A DNA stretch of 35,635 bases from Ureaplasma sp. Hg2 (GTDB lineage Bacteria; Bacillota_I; Bacilli_A; Mycoplasmatales; Mycoplasmoidaceae). Below the pieces are notes generated by a model. That model was not told the DNA's origin, searched no databases, and was given only the letters and a program-made list of their open reading frames with translations. This document shows, in pieces, positions 11,025 through 34,658 of this stretch. How positions within the stretch are numbered: position 1 is the stretch's first letter; each line of letters opens with the position of its first letter. A program made the position numbers and the translations under genes. The stretch is taken from positions 1 to 35,635 of the forward strand of contig JAACJW010000010.1 of the NCBI GenBank assembly GCA_021378525.1, written 5' to 3'.

Positions 11025-13322
11025 CTACGTTTTTTTTGATGATTTAGATTCACTAGATATTTCATCTCCTGTTATCTTGTGACTAGTCGGTCGCGATGTT
11101 CGTTTGACATCTGGATATTTAGAAATTTTAACAAATTTTTTATTTTTACTTACCTTTCTAGATGAGTTGATTGAACTTATTTTTAAACCACTATGCTTGT
11201 ACGCTTTTCTAGCTTCGTAGATCAATTTCTTTTTTCGTTTATAAAAATAAAGCACAATTAAACCAATAAGAAATACTACTACAATGCTAGAAGTGACAGC
11301 GATTGCAATTATAGTATCTTGTTTTGATAAACCGGTTGCAGGTATAGCACCAGTTTTAAAGCCGGTATAAGTATGGGTCGCCACTATTTTTGGTCCATCA
11401 TAATCAGTTGGTAAATCTTTAAAATTAATCGTGATTATAATTGTTCCAGTAAGTTGGTTCCTTTTAATTAAAGGTTTGTCAATTTCAAAGGGTTTGACTA
11501 AAGCGCCGATTTGACATCACTTCAGAACATCAGCATCGCTCACACCACCTTTAATGGCATATTGATTTTTATTAATTTTACTATCATCCATCCAAACTAC
11601 ATGTCATGCAGAATCTGTTTTATAAGTTAAGAATCCTTTAAATGTTTCATTACTAGTGAATTCATTCCCGTTTTTATCATGAGCTACCAAACTAACACCT
11701 AATGTTCCTAATTGGTCATTAGGTGTTAGTTTGGTTTTATTTGTATCAATTGTTAAACCCTTAATATCAAATAATTCATTAAGATCTGTTTTAGTTATAT
11801 TGCTTGCTGATTGCTTTGATAACTCTTTATAGTGAATGGTTGTTTGATTAATTGGTGCTATTCCTTTAACTAAGGAATATTTATTGGTATTTAAATCATA
11901 TTGACTAACCATATCATTGCTATCAAATAATAGCATTTTACTCTTATTGACATCAGCATAAGTAAAACCTTTGATTGTAGAAGTCAGATCACTAAAATCA
12001 TAGTAATCGTCTAATGTTCTAGATAATTTAATATCAAGGTTTGGGTTAGTTGAATTGATCGCATTGCTATTGCTATGCAACTCATATACATATTTGCCAT
12101 CAGCTGATCCGTCTTGTTCTAAAATATGTAAGCCCTTTGATTTAGCGTCAACAAATCCATAACCTTTTGGAGCCGAAAGTGATTTAATTGAAGTGCTCGA
12201 TGGCGTTAAATAATGGTCTTCAATTTTTGCTGAGCTCTTGCTATATCCAGCACAATTATAAGTGTTAGCAAAAACATTAGTTAAATCATTCAAGTTTTTT
12301 GAAACCTTATTTGTTGTTAATATTAATTTCTGTAAGCCTTCTTCAAAAATACTATACATTCATCAAGCGCCCAATTGTCAATGTGAAACATTACTGCCCA
12401 TGACCACTTTACCACTAGTATTTAATGAAAAAGGAATTTTAATAAAATTAGCACTATTAAAATCTTGATTATCATAAGCCCGAGTAAACATTATTATTTG
12501 ATATGGATTTGAAGCATCCGATGTTTTTAAAATCATCATATCGACTGGTCTTTGGTAAACCCCAACGCCTGGCACGCTTTGAATGGTGCTATCGTAGGAA
12601 GTGCCCGCTTTGATGTCAACAACATAGTAGGGCAACACTAGGGGACGGCCCGTACCATGCCCACTATAATCACTATAAAAGCCAAATATTTTATCGTCCG
12701 CCTCTGTTTTACCGGGGATGACATCCATTATCCGACTATCTCTTACATTTGTTGTATGACTTTTAAAATCCATAATCTTAGTTAATTTATCAGCGCTTCA
12801 ATCTCATTTATAAAAAGTTGAATAAGAACCATCCTCATTAGTTTTGCCGTATGTACTTAATGTTGAAATATAAATATAACTACCTTGACTTGAAGCAACT
12901 ACGGCTTCGATGATCTGAAATGTTGCACCAGTTTGTTGAACTAATTCTGAACTGCCAAAGGAATTTATGATGTTGCCACTTGAATCATAAACGATTAATC
13001 CCCCAGATTCATTATTAGCAATACTGTAAATGCCTCCCTTATAATTAAACGGTTGCATTGATTGCATATTATTAAAGAAATCATAGTTGCCAATATCAAC
13101 CGATGGAGTGCCCCATCTAATTCTAACGTTTTTAGTATTTTCTACTTTCATGACATTATCTTGATTAATAGTTGCTGCGGCATTAGTTGACGTCTTATTT
13201 ATGGAGGTATGGTTGTTAGATGTAGTTATCTCACCAATTGCAATGGGCATTGACAATAATAAGCTGGTTGTCAATAATATTGAAGGCAATAATGCACATA
13301 AATTGATTTTATTTTTTTTCAT
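11025..13322 (-). CDS. Large secreted/surface protein, signal peptide plus C-terminal TM and basic tail (765 aa)
   Basis: ORFs 11025..11384, 11604..12359, 12378..12773 and 12804..13322 share one frame through TGA codons; N-terminal hydrophobic signal, C-terminal IAIAVTSSIVVVFLIGLIVLYFYKRKKK. Confidence 0.87.
11686..11735. repeat. Perfect 19-bp inverted repeat (12-bp spacer) inside CDS
   Basis: ACCAAACTAACACCTAATG (11686-11704) and exact reverse complement CATTAGGTGTTAGTTTGGT (11717-11735). Confidence 0.95.
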
Positions 13323-14316: not shown

Positions 14317-14691
14317 ATATCCTCCGTATTTAAAACTAGATAATATATATTATAATAACATAATAAAATATCATTCATTATTATACTTAACGTTTTTATT
14401 AACTAAACCTTACAGCCGACACCGGTTTAAAGTAATCAAACTAATGATTGTTATAATATTTTGAAGAATCAAGTATTAATTAAATTCAATGAATCACTAA
14501 TATTTAGTAATCAAATAGCTTATATTAGTTTTCATTTTACCACTATAAATTTAATCGCATAATAATTATATTATTATGGTAATTTATGTTACAATTTCTA
14601 ATACCTTTAATCTAAATGTGAAATTTTAATATATAAGGAAACTTTTGAATGGAAATTCAAAAAATATTCATTCGAAATAGGAGATTTAAAT

Positions 14692-15090
14692 ATGAGTAAA
14701 GAATATAAATTATGTAAGGCGATTACGATCATCGATTGGCTTTTTGTTCCAGTTGTAATAATTTTAATCGCGCTTGAAGTTGTGGCCGCAATTGGCATTG
14801 CCTCTACTATGGATTCATATGGAAACGTAGATACAAGCAGTATCGCTATAATCAATGTAATTGATATAGTGTTTATCTTAATCATTGTTGCAATGATTAT
14901 TGCCGCTGTTGTTTGTAGTATTATTTTATTAGTTAAAAATGATACAACATCGCCAAACAGTGGGTTGACAATTGCTGTTGGCGTTTGTGGGATTGTATTC
15001 CCACCTGCAAACCTAATCATGGGAATTATGTTATGTGGCAAATTAAAAAATGAATCTAGCACTAGTGCTAATTCTAACACCCCATTATAA
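14692..15090 (+). CDS. Small polytopic membrane protein, tandem paralog 1
   Basis: 132 aa; GGAG RBS; shares NSGLTIAVGVCGIVFPPANLIMGIMLCGKLKNES with the next gene. Confidence 0.8.
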   Translation: MSKEYKLCKAITIIDWLFVPVVIILIALEVVAAIGIASTMDSYGNVDTSSIAIINVIDIVFILIIVAMIIAAVVCSIILLVKNDTTSPNSGLTIAVGVCGIVFPPANLIMGIMLCGKLKNESSTSANSNTPL

Positions 15091-15128
15091 TCTTCATTAA
15101 TTAGTTAAAAAATAATTAATATTTAAGT

Positions 15129-15171
15129 AAAAAAAATCCATTCCATTTTAACAACGGGATGGATTTTTTTT
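15129..15171 (+). terminator. Terminator of the 14692..15090 gene
   Basis: AAAAAAATCCATTCC ... GGGATGGATTTTTTT. Confidence 0.8.
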
Positions 15172-15186
15172 AATCAATTTTAACTA

Positions 15187-15221
15187 ATGCCACTTTTATT
15201 AGAAGCTTATAAAAGTGGCAT
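15187..15221. repeat. Perfect 13-bp inverted repeat (9-nt loop)
   Basis: ATGCCACTTTTAT-TAGAAGCTT-ATAAAAGTGGCAT. Confidence 0.9.
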
Positions 15222-15396
15222 GATTATAATAGGGGGCACTAATTACTCAATCAAGTTGCTCACATATCAAGCTAATCACAAAAGCCAATCATAACATGTC
15301 CTTTGATTTGACAATGTTGTGATAAAGTCATAACAATAAATGTGGTACAATATTTATTACTTTAGAAAAATTAAATTAATTATCGGAGATTTATTT

Positions 15397-15804
15397 ATGA
15401 ATACCAAATATAAAATATGCTTAGCACTTACGGTGCTGGATTGAATTTTAGTACCCGTCATAATTCTTATGATAGTGCTTGAGTTTATCTTAGCTTTATC
15501 CATTAACACCACATATGATCCAACAACTGGCGATATAATATCATCAAATTATTGAATCATCACAGTAGTTAGTATCTTGTTTAGTTTAGCTATTGTTGCA
15601 ATCGAAATTGCATGTCTTGTTCTTAGTATTATGATAATAGTTAAAAATGATTCAACTTCACCAAACAGTGGATTGACTCTTGCTGTTGGGATTTGTGGAA
15701 TCGTTTTCCCACCGGCAAATCTAATTATGGGAATTATGTTATGTGGCAAATTAAAAGATGAAGCCCACGGCAATGCTGGTGCAACAGGTCCAACTGTTTA
15801 TTAA
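15397..15804 (+). CDS. Small polytopic membrane protein, tandem paralog 2
   Basis: Code-4 ORF from ATG 15397: MNTKYKICLALTVLDWILVPVIILMIVLEF...NSGLTLAVGICGIVFPPANLIMGIMLCGKLKDEAHGNAGATGPTVY. Confidence 0.8.
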
Positions 15805-15831
15805 ACAAAATCAGCATTATTATTGTAATCC

Positions 15832-15870
15832 AAAAACATCTATTCTCATTTAATGTAAATGGATGTTTTT
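15832..15870 (+). terminator. Terminator of the 15397..15804 gene
   Basis: AAAAACATCTATT ... AATGGATGTTTTT. Confidence 0.75.
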
Positions 15871-15899
15871 TTAATAACGACCTTCGCTAAAGTTATTTG

Positions 15900-16613
15900 T
15901 AAGATTGATTATTAAATAACGTCATGAATTAAAAGCGGAATTAAATAATATTCATAAGGTATTAAAAAATCTAAGCCGTAGTTTAGATTCCTAATATAAT
16001 TAATGATTTGAATTATTTCAAACAAAGGTTTCATCACTAGTGAAAGCAGCGCCTTCAGATAAATAATGATAATCAGCTTGCTATTTGCCTCTAATATCAT
16101 TAGCTCAATTATGAACTACAACAGTATTACTATTGCGTATCTGTCAGATTTGATTAAGTCTGGTGGAACCGAAGCAGGAGTTAGTTTAAAGTTTAAGCTT
16201 AATTTCATTTGAACCAACGCAACACAATGCGGTTGATATTCCCATGATAGCTAACGTCACTGATATACTGACCCCTATAAAGATCTTCAATTTAAAAATT
16301 GGCGTTTACTCTTAGATATAGGCGTATCAACTGTTCTGTTTGCATATCTACTAGCATTAACGTTACTGTGAGTACGCGCTTTATTAACACTGGCAATCAA
16401 AGGAGATTCATTAATACTAGTATTTAGGCTTCTATCATCCCTTTTATTCCCTTTAATGCTTGTTTTTTGAGAATACTTGGAAGCCATTCGTTCCTTTTTT
16501 GTCATGGTACTATTTTTAGTAACTACAGCATAACTAGCAGTTGCTGAATTATAGTTTTTATTGTTTTCTAATTTTGCATTAGCAACAGTCTTTTTATTAT
16601 TTATATTTTTCAT
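15900..16613 (-). pseudogene. Decayed membrane/surface protein gene
   Basis: ORF 16613..16275 gives a basic disordered tail; the adjacent frame continues LKIFIGVSISVTLAIMGISTALCCVGSNEIKLKL(TM) then stops; downstream same-frame pieces NTVVVHNWANDIRGK*QADYHYLSEGAAFTSDETFVWNNSNH* are interrupted by stops. Left boundary approximate. Confidence 0.6.
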
Positions 16614-16658
16614 TTTAACCCTTGAAATTTTATTTTTATATTAAATAAGTTAATAAAA

Positions 16659-16715
16659 TCGTCATGTAGTTATGACGACTCATTAAAGCTACAGGTGGTC
16701 TGAACCCGATAGCTT
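16659..16715 (-). promoter_or_regulatory. Structured leader: hairpin plus intrinsic terminator upstream of ATG 16613
   Basis: Minus strand: TTGATT-18 bp-TATAAT promoter, then AAGCTA-TCGGGTTCAGACCACCTG-TAGCTT hairpin, then TCGTCAT-AACTAC-ATGACGA followed by TTTTATT. Confidence 0.5.
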
Positions 16716-17223
16716 ATTTATCACAAACATAATTATACAATTAAAGGGATACTAAAATCAATAAAAATCAAGTAAAGCGGTGCAAAAATCAATAAAAATA
16801 CCCATTTTTTCACATTCCGTACTTAAATATTGATAAATTAAATAATATATGAATTATTTTATAAAGAAAACAAATACTAATTAAGCAAACCAAAACTAGA
16901 ACTTTCTAATTCTTATTTCCCGTATTTCGTATAGGAATTTTTAAAAATAATACAATGATTTTTAAAAATACTGCAATGATAAAATTATTAATATAACAAT
17001 TATAATTACAATTAATCACTTAATAGAAAGTTTTCGTTTTATACCTGGTAGATAGTTTTGGGTATTACGTGATATAAAATCTTATTATTGTTGCACTAAT
17101 AACAATAGGCAAGCAACTAAAATAATTATCTCAAATTCACTTAATACAAGCTTTAATATGATTGCTCGTCCGGGTATCTTTATAAGTAATTTCATAATAA
17201 TTTAATTACGAATGGAAACTATG

Positions 17224-17243
17224 ATATACTTTCTAAAGTATAT
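17224..17243. promoter_or_regulatory. Perfect palindrome upstream of 17288 gene (candidate operator)
   Basis: ATATACTTT-CT-AAAGTATAT. Confidence 0.4.
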
Positions 17244-17287
17244 TTTTTAAAATATATAAATTTACAAATAATATAAGGAAATAAAAA

Positions 17288-17857
17288 TTGAAAAAGAATT
17301 TAAAAATAAATAAAAAAATTATAAGTCTAATTGCATTAGGAACATTAGGAGTGTCTGGCATCGTTGTTATTGGAACGGCAGCTGGAGCGGGTATAAGTGC
17401 TGTTAATTATAATGAATACAACACACTACACGATATGTATAATTTGGTCCGATCCCAAGAAAATATCCCCTATTACATCGAAAATTATTCTTTTGGTGAA
17501 TTTATAAAAGATCAAAACACTAGCACAGACAATATGAGACCTCAAGATTTTAAAAGCATGAGAGATTCATCTGATGAAGTGTTAGATAGTTTCAATAGAA
17601 TGACATCAACAAAGCAAGATGAACAAGCTGATCATCACGGTTATTCATCAACAACTGATTATCATCAATCATTAGTAGATCAAGCTAACCTAAATTATGT
17701 TAATGCAGAATCAGGAGCCTTTATAGGCTGTATTTCAGTTATGGCTATCTTTTTAGTTGTTGCCGTGGCATCTGCAACAACTATAGGGACGGTAGGCTAT
17801 TCATATTACAAAAATAGAGACCCTAAAGCTAAAAAACAGGAAAAAACTTCTAAATAA
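17288..17857 (+). CDS. Two-TM membrane protein with ~100-aa external loop
   Basis: 189 aa, TTG start after AAGGA; N-terminal TM IISLIALGTLGVSGIVVIGTAAGAG, C-terminal TM AFIGCISVMAIFLVVAVASATTIGTVGYSYY. Confidence 0.7.
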   Translation: MKKNLKINKKIISLIALGTLGVSGIVVIGTAAGAGISAVNYNEYNTLHDMYNLVRSQENIPYYIENYSFGEFIKDQNTSTDNMRPQDFKSMRDSSDEVLDSFNRMTSTKQDEQADHHGYSSTTDYHQSLVDQANLNYVNAESGAFIGCISVMAIFLVVAVASATTIGTVGYSYYKNRDPKAKKQEKTSK

Positions 17858-17918
17858 ATTAAGTTTTATAAAATTCGATATTAAATAATTTTAATTTCGT
17901 TAATTAAATAAGTTCAGT

Positions 17919-17967
17919 AAAAACATTATTTTCAAAAGAATTTTATTCTATAGAAAATAATGTTTTT
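17919..17967 (+). terminator. Terminator of 17288..17857
   Basis: AAAAACATTATTTTC ... GAAAATAATGTTTTT. Confidence 0.85.
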
Positions 17968-18062
17968 TCTTATAACTCTAAATGACTTATATTCTTATTG
18001 CGGCGATTTTGTTCGGTTTATTTATTTTCAATGTTGTTATAAAAAAATTCGTAAAGATTGCT

Positions 18063-19410
18063 TTAGACGATGTTATTTTGATATAGGAAATCCACATAAA
18101 TGCCAATAGCGTATAGGGGTATATGTCTAATATTGGTGGTTTTATCAAAATAAAAATTCGTTGGACTAGTTTTAATTGCAATGATCTTATTAGTGGTTTT
18201 TATAAAGTTATCAAAACTAACCGCCCTTTTATTAATTGACGATTTACATTCGATAATAACTTGATTAAAATTATTACCCTGTAAAACAAAGTCTATTTCT
18301 TTTTGATGGCTTTTCTTGACGTACTTATAACAATATACTTCTCTAATTTTGAATAATTCGTTATACACAAAATTTTCAGTTAACCCCCCTTTAGCGTTAG
18401 TTCAATTATCGTCATCATTATCAATTTGTATTCTGCTCAATGAAATGGTTTCACTAAAAAAGCCGATATCATTTAAAAAAAGTTTAAATGAATTATCCAT
18501 TATATTCACGATTAAAGGATTGTAAATTTTATTAATATATTGCTGTTTATTGATAATTCTAGATAACACTAAATTCATTATCATTGGTTCGTATTCTCTA
18601 TATCTTACAGAGGGCTCTCCTTCGTAATTTATCTTAGACACTTGAAACTTAGTGTTATTTTTTAAAAGTTGATGAATAATATTATCATAAATTTTTAAAA
18701 CTTTTGGGACATTTTTATCATTGAAATATTTACTAATATCTTCTCTATAATCATGTAATATATTTTTTTTAATTCTTATAGCTTCGTTTAATCCTTTTTT
18801 GATATATCTATAAACCGCCTCTGGCATTCCTCCAATAATTAGATAGTCATAATATAGAACCATTAATTTTTGGTGGGCTAATTCATTAATCGGATCTAAA
18901 TTAATTAAATTATTTTTTACTGTTTTTAATAATAAATATTATCAGAATTAATTAAAAATTCTTCAAAATCCATCGGATACATATATAAATGATCTATCTT
19001 ACCGACGGGGTATGATATTTTTGAACTATTGAGTTTGAGGCTAATTAAACTGCCCAGATGCTATTATTTTCAAGTTAGTAATTTCTTCGTTAAAATATTT
19101 TAATAACGTGATGCAATATGGTACGTTTTGAATTTCATCAAGAAATAATATTGTCTCTTTATTTATTTTTTTACTAAAATAAAGTTCTAATGTTGCTAAC
19201 ATTTCCTTTGCATTCAGTCTTTTAGAGTTGAGTAATTTTGTTAAATATAAATCATTTTCTAAATCAACAAATATATAATTATCAAATTCGGTTTTAATAA
19301 ATTTTTTAATAATAGTTGTTTTGCCTATTTGTCTTGCGCCCTCTACTAACAAGGGTTTTGTATTCATCGTTTTTTCAAACAATAAGTTTTTCATAAATTT
19401 TACGTTGCAT
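18063..19410 (-). pseudogene. AAA+ ATPase of the DUF4143 type, frameshifted
   Basis: Pieces in shifting frames: MQRKIYEKLIVWKNDEYK / PLLVEGARQIGKTTIIKKF..ILFLDEIQNVPYCITLLKYFNEEITNLKIIASG / SLISLKLNSSKISYPVGKIDHLYMYPMDFEEFLINSDNIY / LKTVKNNL..YYDYLIIGGMPEAVYRYIKKG...KKSHQKEIDFVLQ. Confidence 0.85.
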
Positions 19411-30778: not shown

Positions 30779-31705
30779 TTACTCCTTGTGTGAATCAATG
30801 TATTTGGTGAATTCGGTTGGTAAGGGTGTTTCTATATGAATTTTCTTTTTTAAAATCGGATGAGTAAACTTTAATTCATAAGCGTGTAAATATTGACCAT
30901 ACTTGGTTGTTTTGGTTCGTGTTCCATATAATGGGTCATTAATAACTGGGTGATTAATGTAGCGAAGATGAACTCTGATTTGGTGGGTTCTTCCTGTATG
31001 AAGTAAACATTTAATCAAAGCAAATTGATGATAGTTTTTGCATAAGAAAAATTCGGTTGTTGATGGTTTAGCATTTTTGCCTTTACCAACTTGCATGCGT
31101 AATTTGTCTTGGAAACTTCGAGCTATCGGTGCTTCCACAATAACATGATCGTTATTAAAATTATCATTCACTAGTGCATAATAAGTTTTTTCAACTTCAT
31201 GGTTCGCAACCATTGTTTGTAATGAATGCAATGCATTTAAATTTTTGGCAATCATTATTAATCCTGAGGTATCTTTATCTAACCGATGAACGATACCTGG
31301 TTGAAGCTCAGGATAATGTTTTTCAAAATGATACATCAAAACGTTAGCAAGTGTGTCTGGTTCATTATATCCGGTTGGGTGAACTAGCATTCCACTTGGT
31401 TTGTTAACGATTAGCATTTCATCGTCTTCATATGCAATATTAAGTTTTGCTTTAAAAGGTTTTAACGAAATATTAATTTTGTTTGGATCTTCTGTTATTT
31501 TAATCAAAACAAAATCCCCATTTTTAACAATGGAGTTTTTCTTTACTATTTTTTCATTCAAATAAACATTTTCTTGTTCAAATAATAATTGTATTTTAGT
31601 TCTCGAAATATCTAATTTTTGTTGAATAAACTTATCAATTCTAATCGGGGTTTCTATTTTAACTTTGATTTCAATTGGTTTATTTATTGGGTTATTTTGC
31701 TTCAT
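30779..31705 (-). CDS. rluD: Ribosomal large subunit pseudouridine synthase RluD family
   Basis: S4-like N-terminus, GIVHRLDKDTSGLIMIAKN, LHTGRTHQIRVHL; adjacent to lspA. Confidence 0.92.
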   Translation of the reverse strand: MKQNNPINKPIEIKVKIETPIRIDKFIQQKLDISRTKIQLLFEQENVYLNEKIVKKNSIVKNGDFVLIKITEDPNKINISLKPFKAKLNIAYEDDEMLIVNKPSGMLVHPTGYNEPDTLANVLMYHFEKHYPELQPGIVHRLDKDTSGLIMIAKNLNALHSLQTMVANHEVEKTYYALVNDNFNNDHVIVEAPIARSFQDKLRMQVGKGKNAKPSTTEFFLCKNYHQFALIKCLLHTGRTHQIRVHLRYINHPVINDPLYGTRTKTTKYGQYLHAYELKFTHPILKKKIHIETPLPTEFTKYIDSHKE

Positions 31706-34658
31706 ATTGTTTTGTTTGTCTATCTTTTTCACGTTCTTTAACCCTAATCATTACTGTAATTTCATTAGCTATTTCATTTAATCTTCTATCGAGTGTTTGG
31801 ATTTCGTCTTCTAATATTTTTATTTCACCTTCAAACATATCAGGGTCTTCATAAGTTGTATTGTTATTTAAACTAATTAACTCCTTGTGAACATCAATTT
31901 GTCTAAGTTGAATTTCATATGTTTCGTTGTTAATTTCCTTAAATTTTCTTATAAATTCAGTATGTTCATTCGCATTTTCTAATGAAATATTACTAATTAT
32001 ACTTTCGGCTCGCTCTAGAACAATATCAATCTTCTTTCTTTCGACTTTATTATTTGGCACATGAATTATTTCATCAATTGGACGATGGCCCATTTTCCGC
32101 ACTCTTCTACTTGAACGTAACTCACGGTCCTCAGCCACTATTAATTCTCTGGTTTTTTCTTCTAACTTAATCTCAGCATTCTCTTTGCCTACAAGCGCCC
32201 TTTTAAGTTGGGCCTCTAAATATTTAGTTTTTTCTTCCATTTCTGATGCAGCATTTTTTGCGCGATCAGCTTCCATAAGATCGGCTTGAATTCGAGCTTT
32301 TTCCATAGATAATTTTTCACGGTCAATTTCTAACTGTTTAGCTGCAAGTGCTTTGTTAAGTTTAATTTCTAATTTCTTAGCTTCAAGTTTTCCTTTAGCT
32401 GCAACTTCTTTATCGTGTTGAATTTCAAGTTGTTTAGCTGCAACTTCTTTGTCGTGTTGAATTTCAAGTTGCTTAGTCGCAAGCGCTTCTTTTGCTGCAA
32501 CTTCTTTATCATGTTTAATCTCTAATTTTTTAGCTTCAAGTTTTTCTTTGTTAGCAACTTCTTTATCGTGTTGAATTTCAAGTTGTTTAGCTGCAACTTC
32601 TTTATCGTGTTTAATCTCTAATTTTTTAGCTTCAAGTTTTTCTTTGTTAGCAACTTCTTTATCGTGTTTGATTTCTAATTTCTTAGCTTCAAGTTTTTCT
32701 TTGTTAGCAATTTCTTTAACGTGTTGAATTTCAAGTTTCTTAGTTGCAAGTGCTTCTTTTGCTGCAACTTCTTTATCATGCTTGATCTCTAATTTTTTAG
32801 CTTCAAGTTTTTCTTTGGCAGCAATTTCTTTAACGTGTTGAATTTCAAGTTGCTTAGTCGCAAGTGCTTCTTTTGCCGCAACTTCTTTATCGTGTTTAAT
32901 CTCTAATTTTTTAGCTTCAAGTTTTTCTTTGTTAGCAACTTCTTTATCGTGCTTGATTTTTAATTTCTTCGCTTCTAATTTTTCTTTTGCTGCAACTTCT
33001 TTATTGTGTTTAATTTCTAATTTTTTAGCTGCAAGTTTTTCCTTGGCAGCTTCTCTTTTTTCATCAGCAAGTTTTTCAAGTTCTGATTTTTCATAGTTTT
33101 CAATTTCTACATTTTTTGAAGCCGCTTCTCTTTCTTGCTTAATTTCCAATTTCTTAGCTGCAAGTTTCTCTTTGGCAGCTTCCTTTTTTTCATCAGCAAG
33201 TTTTTCAAGTTCAGATTTTTCATAGTTTTCATAGTTTTCAATTTCTACATTTTTTGAAGCTGCTTCTCTTTTAGCTTTTAATGCTTCAAGTTTTTGAGTT
33301 CTAATAGCTGCCAATTTTTTAGTTCTTTCAGCTGCTGTTTCCGGTTTTTCTTCAGATGCTATTTCTGGTTTGTCTTCGGGTGCCGCTTCTGGTTTGTCTT
33401 CGGGTGCTATTTCTGGTTTGTCTTCAGAAACTTTAGGAGTTTCTTTTTCACTATCACTCATATCACTAAGTAACTTTTTATCGGCTTCTAATTGTGCACG
33501 TCGCGCTTCTAACTTTGCCATTTCAGCAGCCATTTCACCTTGTTCTTTGTCCACTGGTGCTTCTGATGCTTTTTCGCTTTCACGTTTATCAGCTAAAACT
33601 GTTTCACTTTCGTGTTGATCCTCTAATTCTTGTTTTTCTTTTAATTCTTTAAGTTTCGCCAAATGTTTTTCACGCGGTGATAATTCATCATCGTTTAAAG
33701 TTGCTGCTTGGGCGCGTTCCAATTCTTTAATTTTTGCCAAATGTTTTTCACGCGGTGATAATTCGTCATCCAAAGCTACTGTTTGAGCATGCTCCGACTC
33801 TTTAAGCTTTGCTTCTCGCATTTTTCTAGCTTTAATTTCTTCTGCACCGCTAGTCGCAACCGCAGCAACAAACTTATGAGGCGAATAATTATTGTTGGTA
33901 TTAAAATTAGGTTTACCAACGTTAGGTTCAACATCATATTCTTCGTCTTCGTCTTCTTCGTATTCTTCGTCGTATTCAAGATTTTTATGATCACTAAAAA
34001 AGCTATAAATCAATTCCGCAATAAGCGCGACGATTGTTATTGCAATTCCACCAACAACAAAACTATCTGCTCAATTAAAAACAAAAGTTGGCCACTTGAA
34101 ATAGTCAATTACTTGATTAGTTAAATTTAGAGGTCCATCGGATATATTAATTGTATCAACAACAGAACGGTCGACAACATTCCCTAATCCTCCAAAGAAA
34201 ATAGCATAAACAGTTAAAATGTATCATCATTCGGTAATAAAGAAACTAACTATCAAAGATATAAACACAGGTATTATTTGAACAACCAATACAATTGTAG
34301 GACTGGCGTCATTCAACATACTAAAACCTACACCGCTGTTGGGAACAAACCAAAAACCTCATTCAGGCCCTGCTGAACTTCAATTAAAGTGGGCCTGTTT
34401 TACCATTTCGTGTGTCAAACCCTTAACACCAAACTTATCAAAATTTTCAAGAAAATATTCTCTTAAAAAATATCAACCGACTCAAAAAATAACACCTAAT
34501 AAAATGAAGGTGACGATTTTAGTTATCAAAACCTTACAAGAAAATAGTTCATTAAAATATTCACGCCGTGAATCATTTTCAATTCGATCTCATAAGTTTC
34601 CAAGCAATACTTTATCTAAAAAATATGTACTTGTATCTTCGTTAAATTGTTCTGCCAT
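31692..34658 (-). CDS. lspA: Lipoprotein signal peptidase LspA fused to a ~770-aa charged repeat coiled-coil C-terminal region (988 aa)
   Basis: I read codons from ATG 34658 down to 34013 without TAA/TAG: MAEQFNEDTSTYFLDKV...NSGVGFSMLND...FFGGLGNVVDRSVVD...PTFVFNWADSFVVGG...AELIYSFFSDHKNLEYDEEYEEDEDEEYD..., continuing into track ORF 34013..31692 (645 nt = 215 codons upstream). Confidence 0.93.
32345..33060 (-). repeat. 57-bp (19-aa) imperfect tandem repeats with some 39-bp (13-aa) units in the LspA tail
   Basis: Units KEVAAKEKLEAKKLEIKHD / KEVAAKEALATKQLEIQHD / KEVAAKQLEIQHD repeated about 12-13 times. Boundaries approximate. Confidence 0.88.

Follow-up and report, generated by a model that had tools for sequence, protein, structure and literature searches.

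A perfect 19-bp inverted repeat in a surface-protein gene of Ureaplasma sp. Hg2 is probably a footprint of replication template switching

The stretch of Ureaplasma sp. Hg2 DNA analysed here (the window, 35,635 nucleotides) carries a perfect inverted repeat with 19-bp arms and a 12-nt spacer inside the coding sequence of a surface-type protein. The repeat had been described in an earlier note, whose coordinates and sequence were reproduced exactly. The palindrome is true and statistically striking, and mutation of a kind already known most likely left it behind. Specifically, we consider it probable that a quasi-palindrome inherited with several pairing registers was homogenised by template switching during replication, differently in each lineage, and on this reading the palindrome would be a mutational footprint that serves no dedicated function. 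The positions of the repeat, its host gene and the related pairing registers are collected in Table 1.

Table 1 Positions of the inverted repeat, its alternative pairing registers, the host gene and the syntenic ortholog. Positions are those of the window unless a contig is named.
Feature	Position	Strand	Sequence or remark
Host gene, 765-aa surface-type protein	13322..11025	-	code 4, TGA = Trp
Arm, plus-strand reading	11686-11704	+	ACCAAACTAACACCTAATG
Spacer, plus-strand reading	11705-11716	+	TTCCTAATTGGT
Arm, plus-strand reading	11717-11735	+	CATTAGGTGTTAGTTTGGT
5' arm of hairpin, mRNA sense	11717..11735	-	ACCAAACTAACACCTAATG; codons T-K-L-T-P-N
12-nt spacer/loop, mRNA sense	11705..11716	-	ACCAATTAGGAA
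3' arm of hairpin, mRNA sense	11686..11704	-	CATTAGGTGTTAGTTTGGT; L-G-V-S-L-V
Alternative (ortholog) register	11690..11724	-	13/14 pairs in ortholog, only 9/14 in Hg2
Short inner register	11707..11723	-	CCTAAT-GACCA-ATTAGG; ortholog CTAAC-GACAA-GTTAG
Syntenic ortholog	G001:C23:28547-30979		same neighbours, Lon to Bax1-I family gene

The repeat falls within codons 530-546 of the host gene and encodes the residues TKLTPNDQLGTLGVSLV. By inspection, the N-terminus of the host protein is signal-peptide-like, and its C-terminus bears a transmembrane segment followed by a basic tail. A Pfam search of the protein matched no family, and no relatives were found among the wider genome contigs; within its own genome the gene belongs to a family of surface-type paralogs. 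The source is a Ureaplasma-like MAG (the Hg2 genome, G000) whose nearest relative by Lon is the MAG 'Ureaplasma sp. Hg1'. The sister genome used for comparison (G001) is most likely this Hg1 MAG, and the genus is covered by these two genomes. Read as mRNA, the repeat forms a hairpin with a folding energy of -30.5 kcal/mol (z -8.5), the lowest among 7,289 sampled 70-nt coding windows of the Hg2 genome.

Chance and coding constraint were evaluated at two levels. Coding inverted repeats with loops of 3-20 nt were counted, with the first 30 codons of each coding sequence left out because start codons are uncertain. In about 305 kb of sampled Hg2 coding sequence, the focal repeat is the only one with an arm of at least 17 bp, and 30 synonymous-codon shuffles of the same sequence produced none. 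At the site itself, the protein was held fixed and codons were drawn by genomic usage. All 19 positions paired in 5 of 100,000 draws (P about 5e-5), although random synonymous codons already average 13 of 19 pairs. Coding constraint thus makes pairing at the site easier but is not enough to explain the palindrome, and the earlier note, which doubted that either chance or coding constraint could readily produce the repeat, is borne out on this point. A chance build-up of independent substitutions, aided by an amino acid sequence that favours complementarity, draws on that same high average; it is already disfavoured by the rarity of full pairing and by the empty shuffles, as well as by the near-palindrome that the ortholog independently has at this place (see below), and we regard it as improbable.

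The ortholog aligns with the host gene codon for codon across the repeat, with the same length and no gaps. This shows that the palindrome did not come about by insertion of an inverted copy, and it makes a fold-back artefact of the assembly very unlikely. Of the recent inverted duplication suggested in the earlier note, the form by insertion falls away, and homogenisation of the arms by substitution is what remains. In the focal register the ortholog pairs at 11 of 19 positions. The two arms differ from their ortholog counterparts by 5/19 and 6/19 substitutions, so that both arms are affected, and arm identity between the orthologs is 71% over 38 positions, from which about 10 pairs are expected by arithmetic if the arms diverged independently. 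With 11 pairs kept against about 10 expected, the focal pairs show no sign of conservation. Within the 19-bp register one pair has changed on both sides (C:G in Hg2, T:A in the ortholog).

The ortholog nevertheless possesses a near-perfect hairpin of its own, AGCTAACG-A-CAAGT / ACTTG-A-CGTTAGCT, with 13 of 14 positions paired around a loop of 7. The centres of the two species' palindromes lie 3.5 nt apart, and their pairing registers differ. The earlier note had counted a lack of symmetry in orthologs among the findings that together would speak against its proposals; the 19-bp register is indeed missing from the ortholog, while a symmetry in another register is present. Near-palindromes as good as this one occur at 9 sites in 201 kb of Hg1 coding sequence, which puts the chance of finding one at the focal spot at about 1e-3, and pairing of 13/14 in the ortholog register was reached in none of 100,000 synonymous draws (a register chosen post hoc). 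An inner register (CTAAY/RTTAG) is present in both species, where a T:A pair in Hg2 corresponds to C:G in the ortholog. Judged from the two sequences, both species have a site that is quasi-palindromic in more than one register, and the register that was perfected appears to differ between them.

Fold-back copying that rewrote the arms is the account best supported by these features. The starting point would be an inherited quasi-palindrome in a fast-evolving surface-protein gene, with CTAA/TTAG motifs on either side of a turn. On one such seed the nascent strand may fold back during replication, copy the opposite arm and return, and several bases in one arm would thereby become perfectly complementary to those of the other. 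In Hg2 the 19-bp register was most likely produced in this way, a different register would have been homogenised in the sister species, and the protein presumably tolerated the changes. That a template switch took place, in which direction and when, is what we infer. A perfect repeat stands in Hg2 where its relative has an imperfect one, with no net insertion, and the repeat is commoner than coding constraint predicts. Together with the gap-free ortholog, the two registers, the lack of strong stems in the paralogs, the surplus of coding palindromes and the repair genes that escaped detection (both described below), this points to template switching. As a counter-point, selection for a hairpin would likewise leave one at this spot in both species. 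In one arm, 4 of 6 bases differ between the species in a cluster (CTTGAC/TTAGGT), which is not significant alone and for which the outgroup is too distant. Neither arm clearly exceeds the local divergence of the gene (about 24%), so a single arm-copying event is not directly visible, and with two species no change is polarised. Paralogs were considered as an outgroup for this purpose and rejected as too distant (about 35% protein identity).

Template switching of this type has precedents. Quasi-palindrome mutations were mapped in coding DNA of Saccharomyces cerevisiae (PMC8604942) and assayed with reporters in E. coli (PMC7202029). The Hg2 repeat resembles both in being a perfect in-gene repeat that is imperfect in a relative, arose with no insertion and entailed tolerated amino acid changes; it differs by its 19-bp arm (7-16 bp in the yeast cases), by its unpolarised direction and by the separate palindrome, in another register, that its relative carries. 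To account for the surplus of inverted repeats in prokaryotic coding sequences, Ladoukakis and Eyre-Walker (cited in PMC4060949) also proposed this mechanism. As in that survey, coding inverted repeats of the Mollicutes sampled here exceed the codon-preserving expectation, and next to the arms of 6-9 bp for which it is cited the focal repeat stands at the long extreme. For coding palindromes in the mitochondria of Nematomorpha, template switching has likewise been suggested (PMC6649704). These are also perfect repeats in conserved protein-coding sequence that are gained or lost between species, though they are numerous and reach 284 bp, compared with one 19-bp repeat here.

The main rival is a selected mRNA hairpin that would act in translation pausing, mRNA stability or as an internal processing site, and for which the presence of a stem matters rather than its register. 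The earlier note had offered a hairpin that pauses translation; its thermodynamic strength and the presence of a hairpin in the ortholog hold, and the register of that hairpin is another one. A stem at the same place in the one available relative, the extreme stability of the Hg2 fold, codon choice that favours pairing in both species and the paired change in the inner register are all compatible with such selection. Against it stand the 19 pairs themselves, which are kept no better than independent divergence would leave them and include a single compensatory change, and the occurrence of excess palindromes in unrelated genes. No obvious landmark adjoins the hairpin, and the transmembrane segment lies roughly 130 codons downstream. 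An Rfam scan gave no family at its gathering score; the weak matches, far below gathering scores and mostly to eukaryotic miRNA models, are meaningless. On balance, a selected hairpin seems unlikely, if still the most serious competitor of template switching. A broader formulation, in which selection or biased mutation maintains a strong coding hairpin across species while its pairing register turns over, can be advanced only tentatively. Because such a process would preserve a stem at the place and not its particular pairs, ordinary covariation tests would miss it. The register difference between the sister species makes template-switch mutagenesis and a selected hairpin testable against each other, and this is the part worth following.

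Paralogous copies of the region speak further against a functional element. The repeat region is part of a repeated domain (..ND..GTL.V....D..G......T..GF), found in 60 copies in the sampled contigs of both genomes. Strong stems are confined to the focal copy and its ortholog; the other 58 fold at background energy, and the mean over all copies is -9.3 kcal/mol, compared with coding backgrounds of -8.9 and -8.0. Neither the domain nor a family-wide element therefore explains the hairpin, and coding constraint from the repeated domain was rejected as the cause of the palindrome since the paralog copies fold at background. The unnamed domain is spread over many contigs of both genomes (e.g. contig C12 of Hg2), and the multi-gene surface-protein family that carries it appears almost confined to the genus.

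Coding palindromes were further counted in sampled contigs of both genomes and in 80-kb stretches of five relatives. Repeats with arms of at least 14 bp numbered 4 in Hg2 and 2 in Hg1, compared with 0.10 in the synonymous shuffles of each, and an excess was also seen at arms of at least 11-12 bp in two of the relatives (G005 and G007, samples of the same order). Coding palindromes are thus in excess in Hg2, Hg1 and some other Mollicutes samples, as is known for prokaryotes. At 2 of the 7 palindrome sites with an aligned ortholog position, the other species also has a palindrome, compared with 2 of 1,104 random positions. One of the two is the focal site; the other lies in an ABC-transporter-type gene, where both species have a perfect 14-bp coding palindrome (G000:C1:69633-69665 and G001:C12:52065-52095, or L091 9933-9965 and L107 12265-12295 in the sampled stretches). 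Here one pair is C:G in one species and A:T in the other, a compensatory change, and A/D and Q/H replacements accompany it. A uridine-kinase-like gene of Hg2 contains a 15-bp perfect coding hairpin with a loop of 3 (G000:C1:42870-42902; L090 3070-3102), whose arm ACCAAACGACGAATG begins like the focal arm; a search of Hg1 for an ortholog of this gene (G000 C1:42680-43300) found none.

In E. coli, single-strand 3' exonucleases including ExoVII limit quasi-palindrome mutations. MutS, the large subunit of ExoVII and SbcD had no match in either genome, in searches whose controls worked and which covered incomplete MAGs (79% and 85%), so that these negatives serve as supporting evidence. The Hg2 repeat is an unusually long and clean coding palindrome in a lineage where none of these three was found.

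Surface genes of Ureaplasma are known for phase variation, and the earlier note had proposed that the repeat might be an inversion or recombinase site. In Ureaplasma parvum, phase or antigenic variation at the mba and UU172 loci involves inverted repeats and XerC (PMC3599477, PMC3047005), and in Hg2, too, a surface-protein gene, here one of a paralog family in a Ureaplasma-like organism, contains an inverted repeat. Inversion of its 12-nt spacer would stay in frame and change DQLGT to VPNWS, an inverted form that was not observed in the two genomes, and the genome encodes a tyrosine recombinase (one match). Nevertheless, the known inversions join repeats that flank gene segments (PMC3599477, PMC3047005), while here just two arms enclose a 12-nt spacer, and no pair of inverted copies flanks an invertible promoter or gene segment. 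The search for other genomic copies of the 19-mer that the note had called for returned none at up to 2 mismatches. The mba/UU172 core ATTTRAATTA(TCAAACAG) is absent from the host gene, its matches in the genome do not exceed those of a reversed-pattern control, and no serine recombinase was detected. In the ortholog the arms are not conserved, and the spacer is identical at 9 of 12 positions in the same orientation, compared with 2 of 12 if inverted. A site for inversion is therefore very improbable, and the tempting claim of phase variation for a Ureaplasma-like surface gene is removed as unsupported.

Equally remote is a rho-independent terminator of antisense transcription, in which the stem would be followed by TTTATTTG on the plus strand. 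This T-rich stretch directly past the stem would suit a terminator, and several intergenic stems of the Hg2 genome are similar to the A/C-rich 5' arm. Yet there is no plus-strand gene nearby upstream, the stem of the ortholog is not followed by a T-run, the loop, at 12 nt, is long and G:C pairs make up only 7 of the 19.

Several other features of the window were observed alongside the repeat. The region 14400-18050 holds small membrane-protein genes and has no blastn match to contig C23 of Hg1, and from 19725 onward synteny shifts to C23:78-93 kb, with the orientation reversed. An AAA_14/DUF4143 ATPase gene (18063-19394, minus strand) is split into the ORFs 18063-18863 and 19041-19394 by an in-frame interruption, while its ortholog (G001:C23:15863-17212) is one intact frame. 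Finally, in a 988-aa protein (31692-34658, minus strand), residues 99-213 form a signal peptidase II (LspA) domain, and a charged, repetitive, coiled-coil-like extension of about 750 residues follows it.
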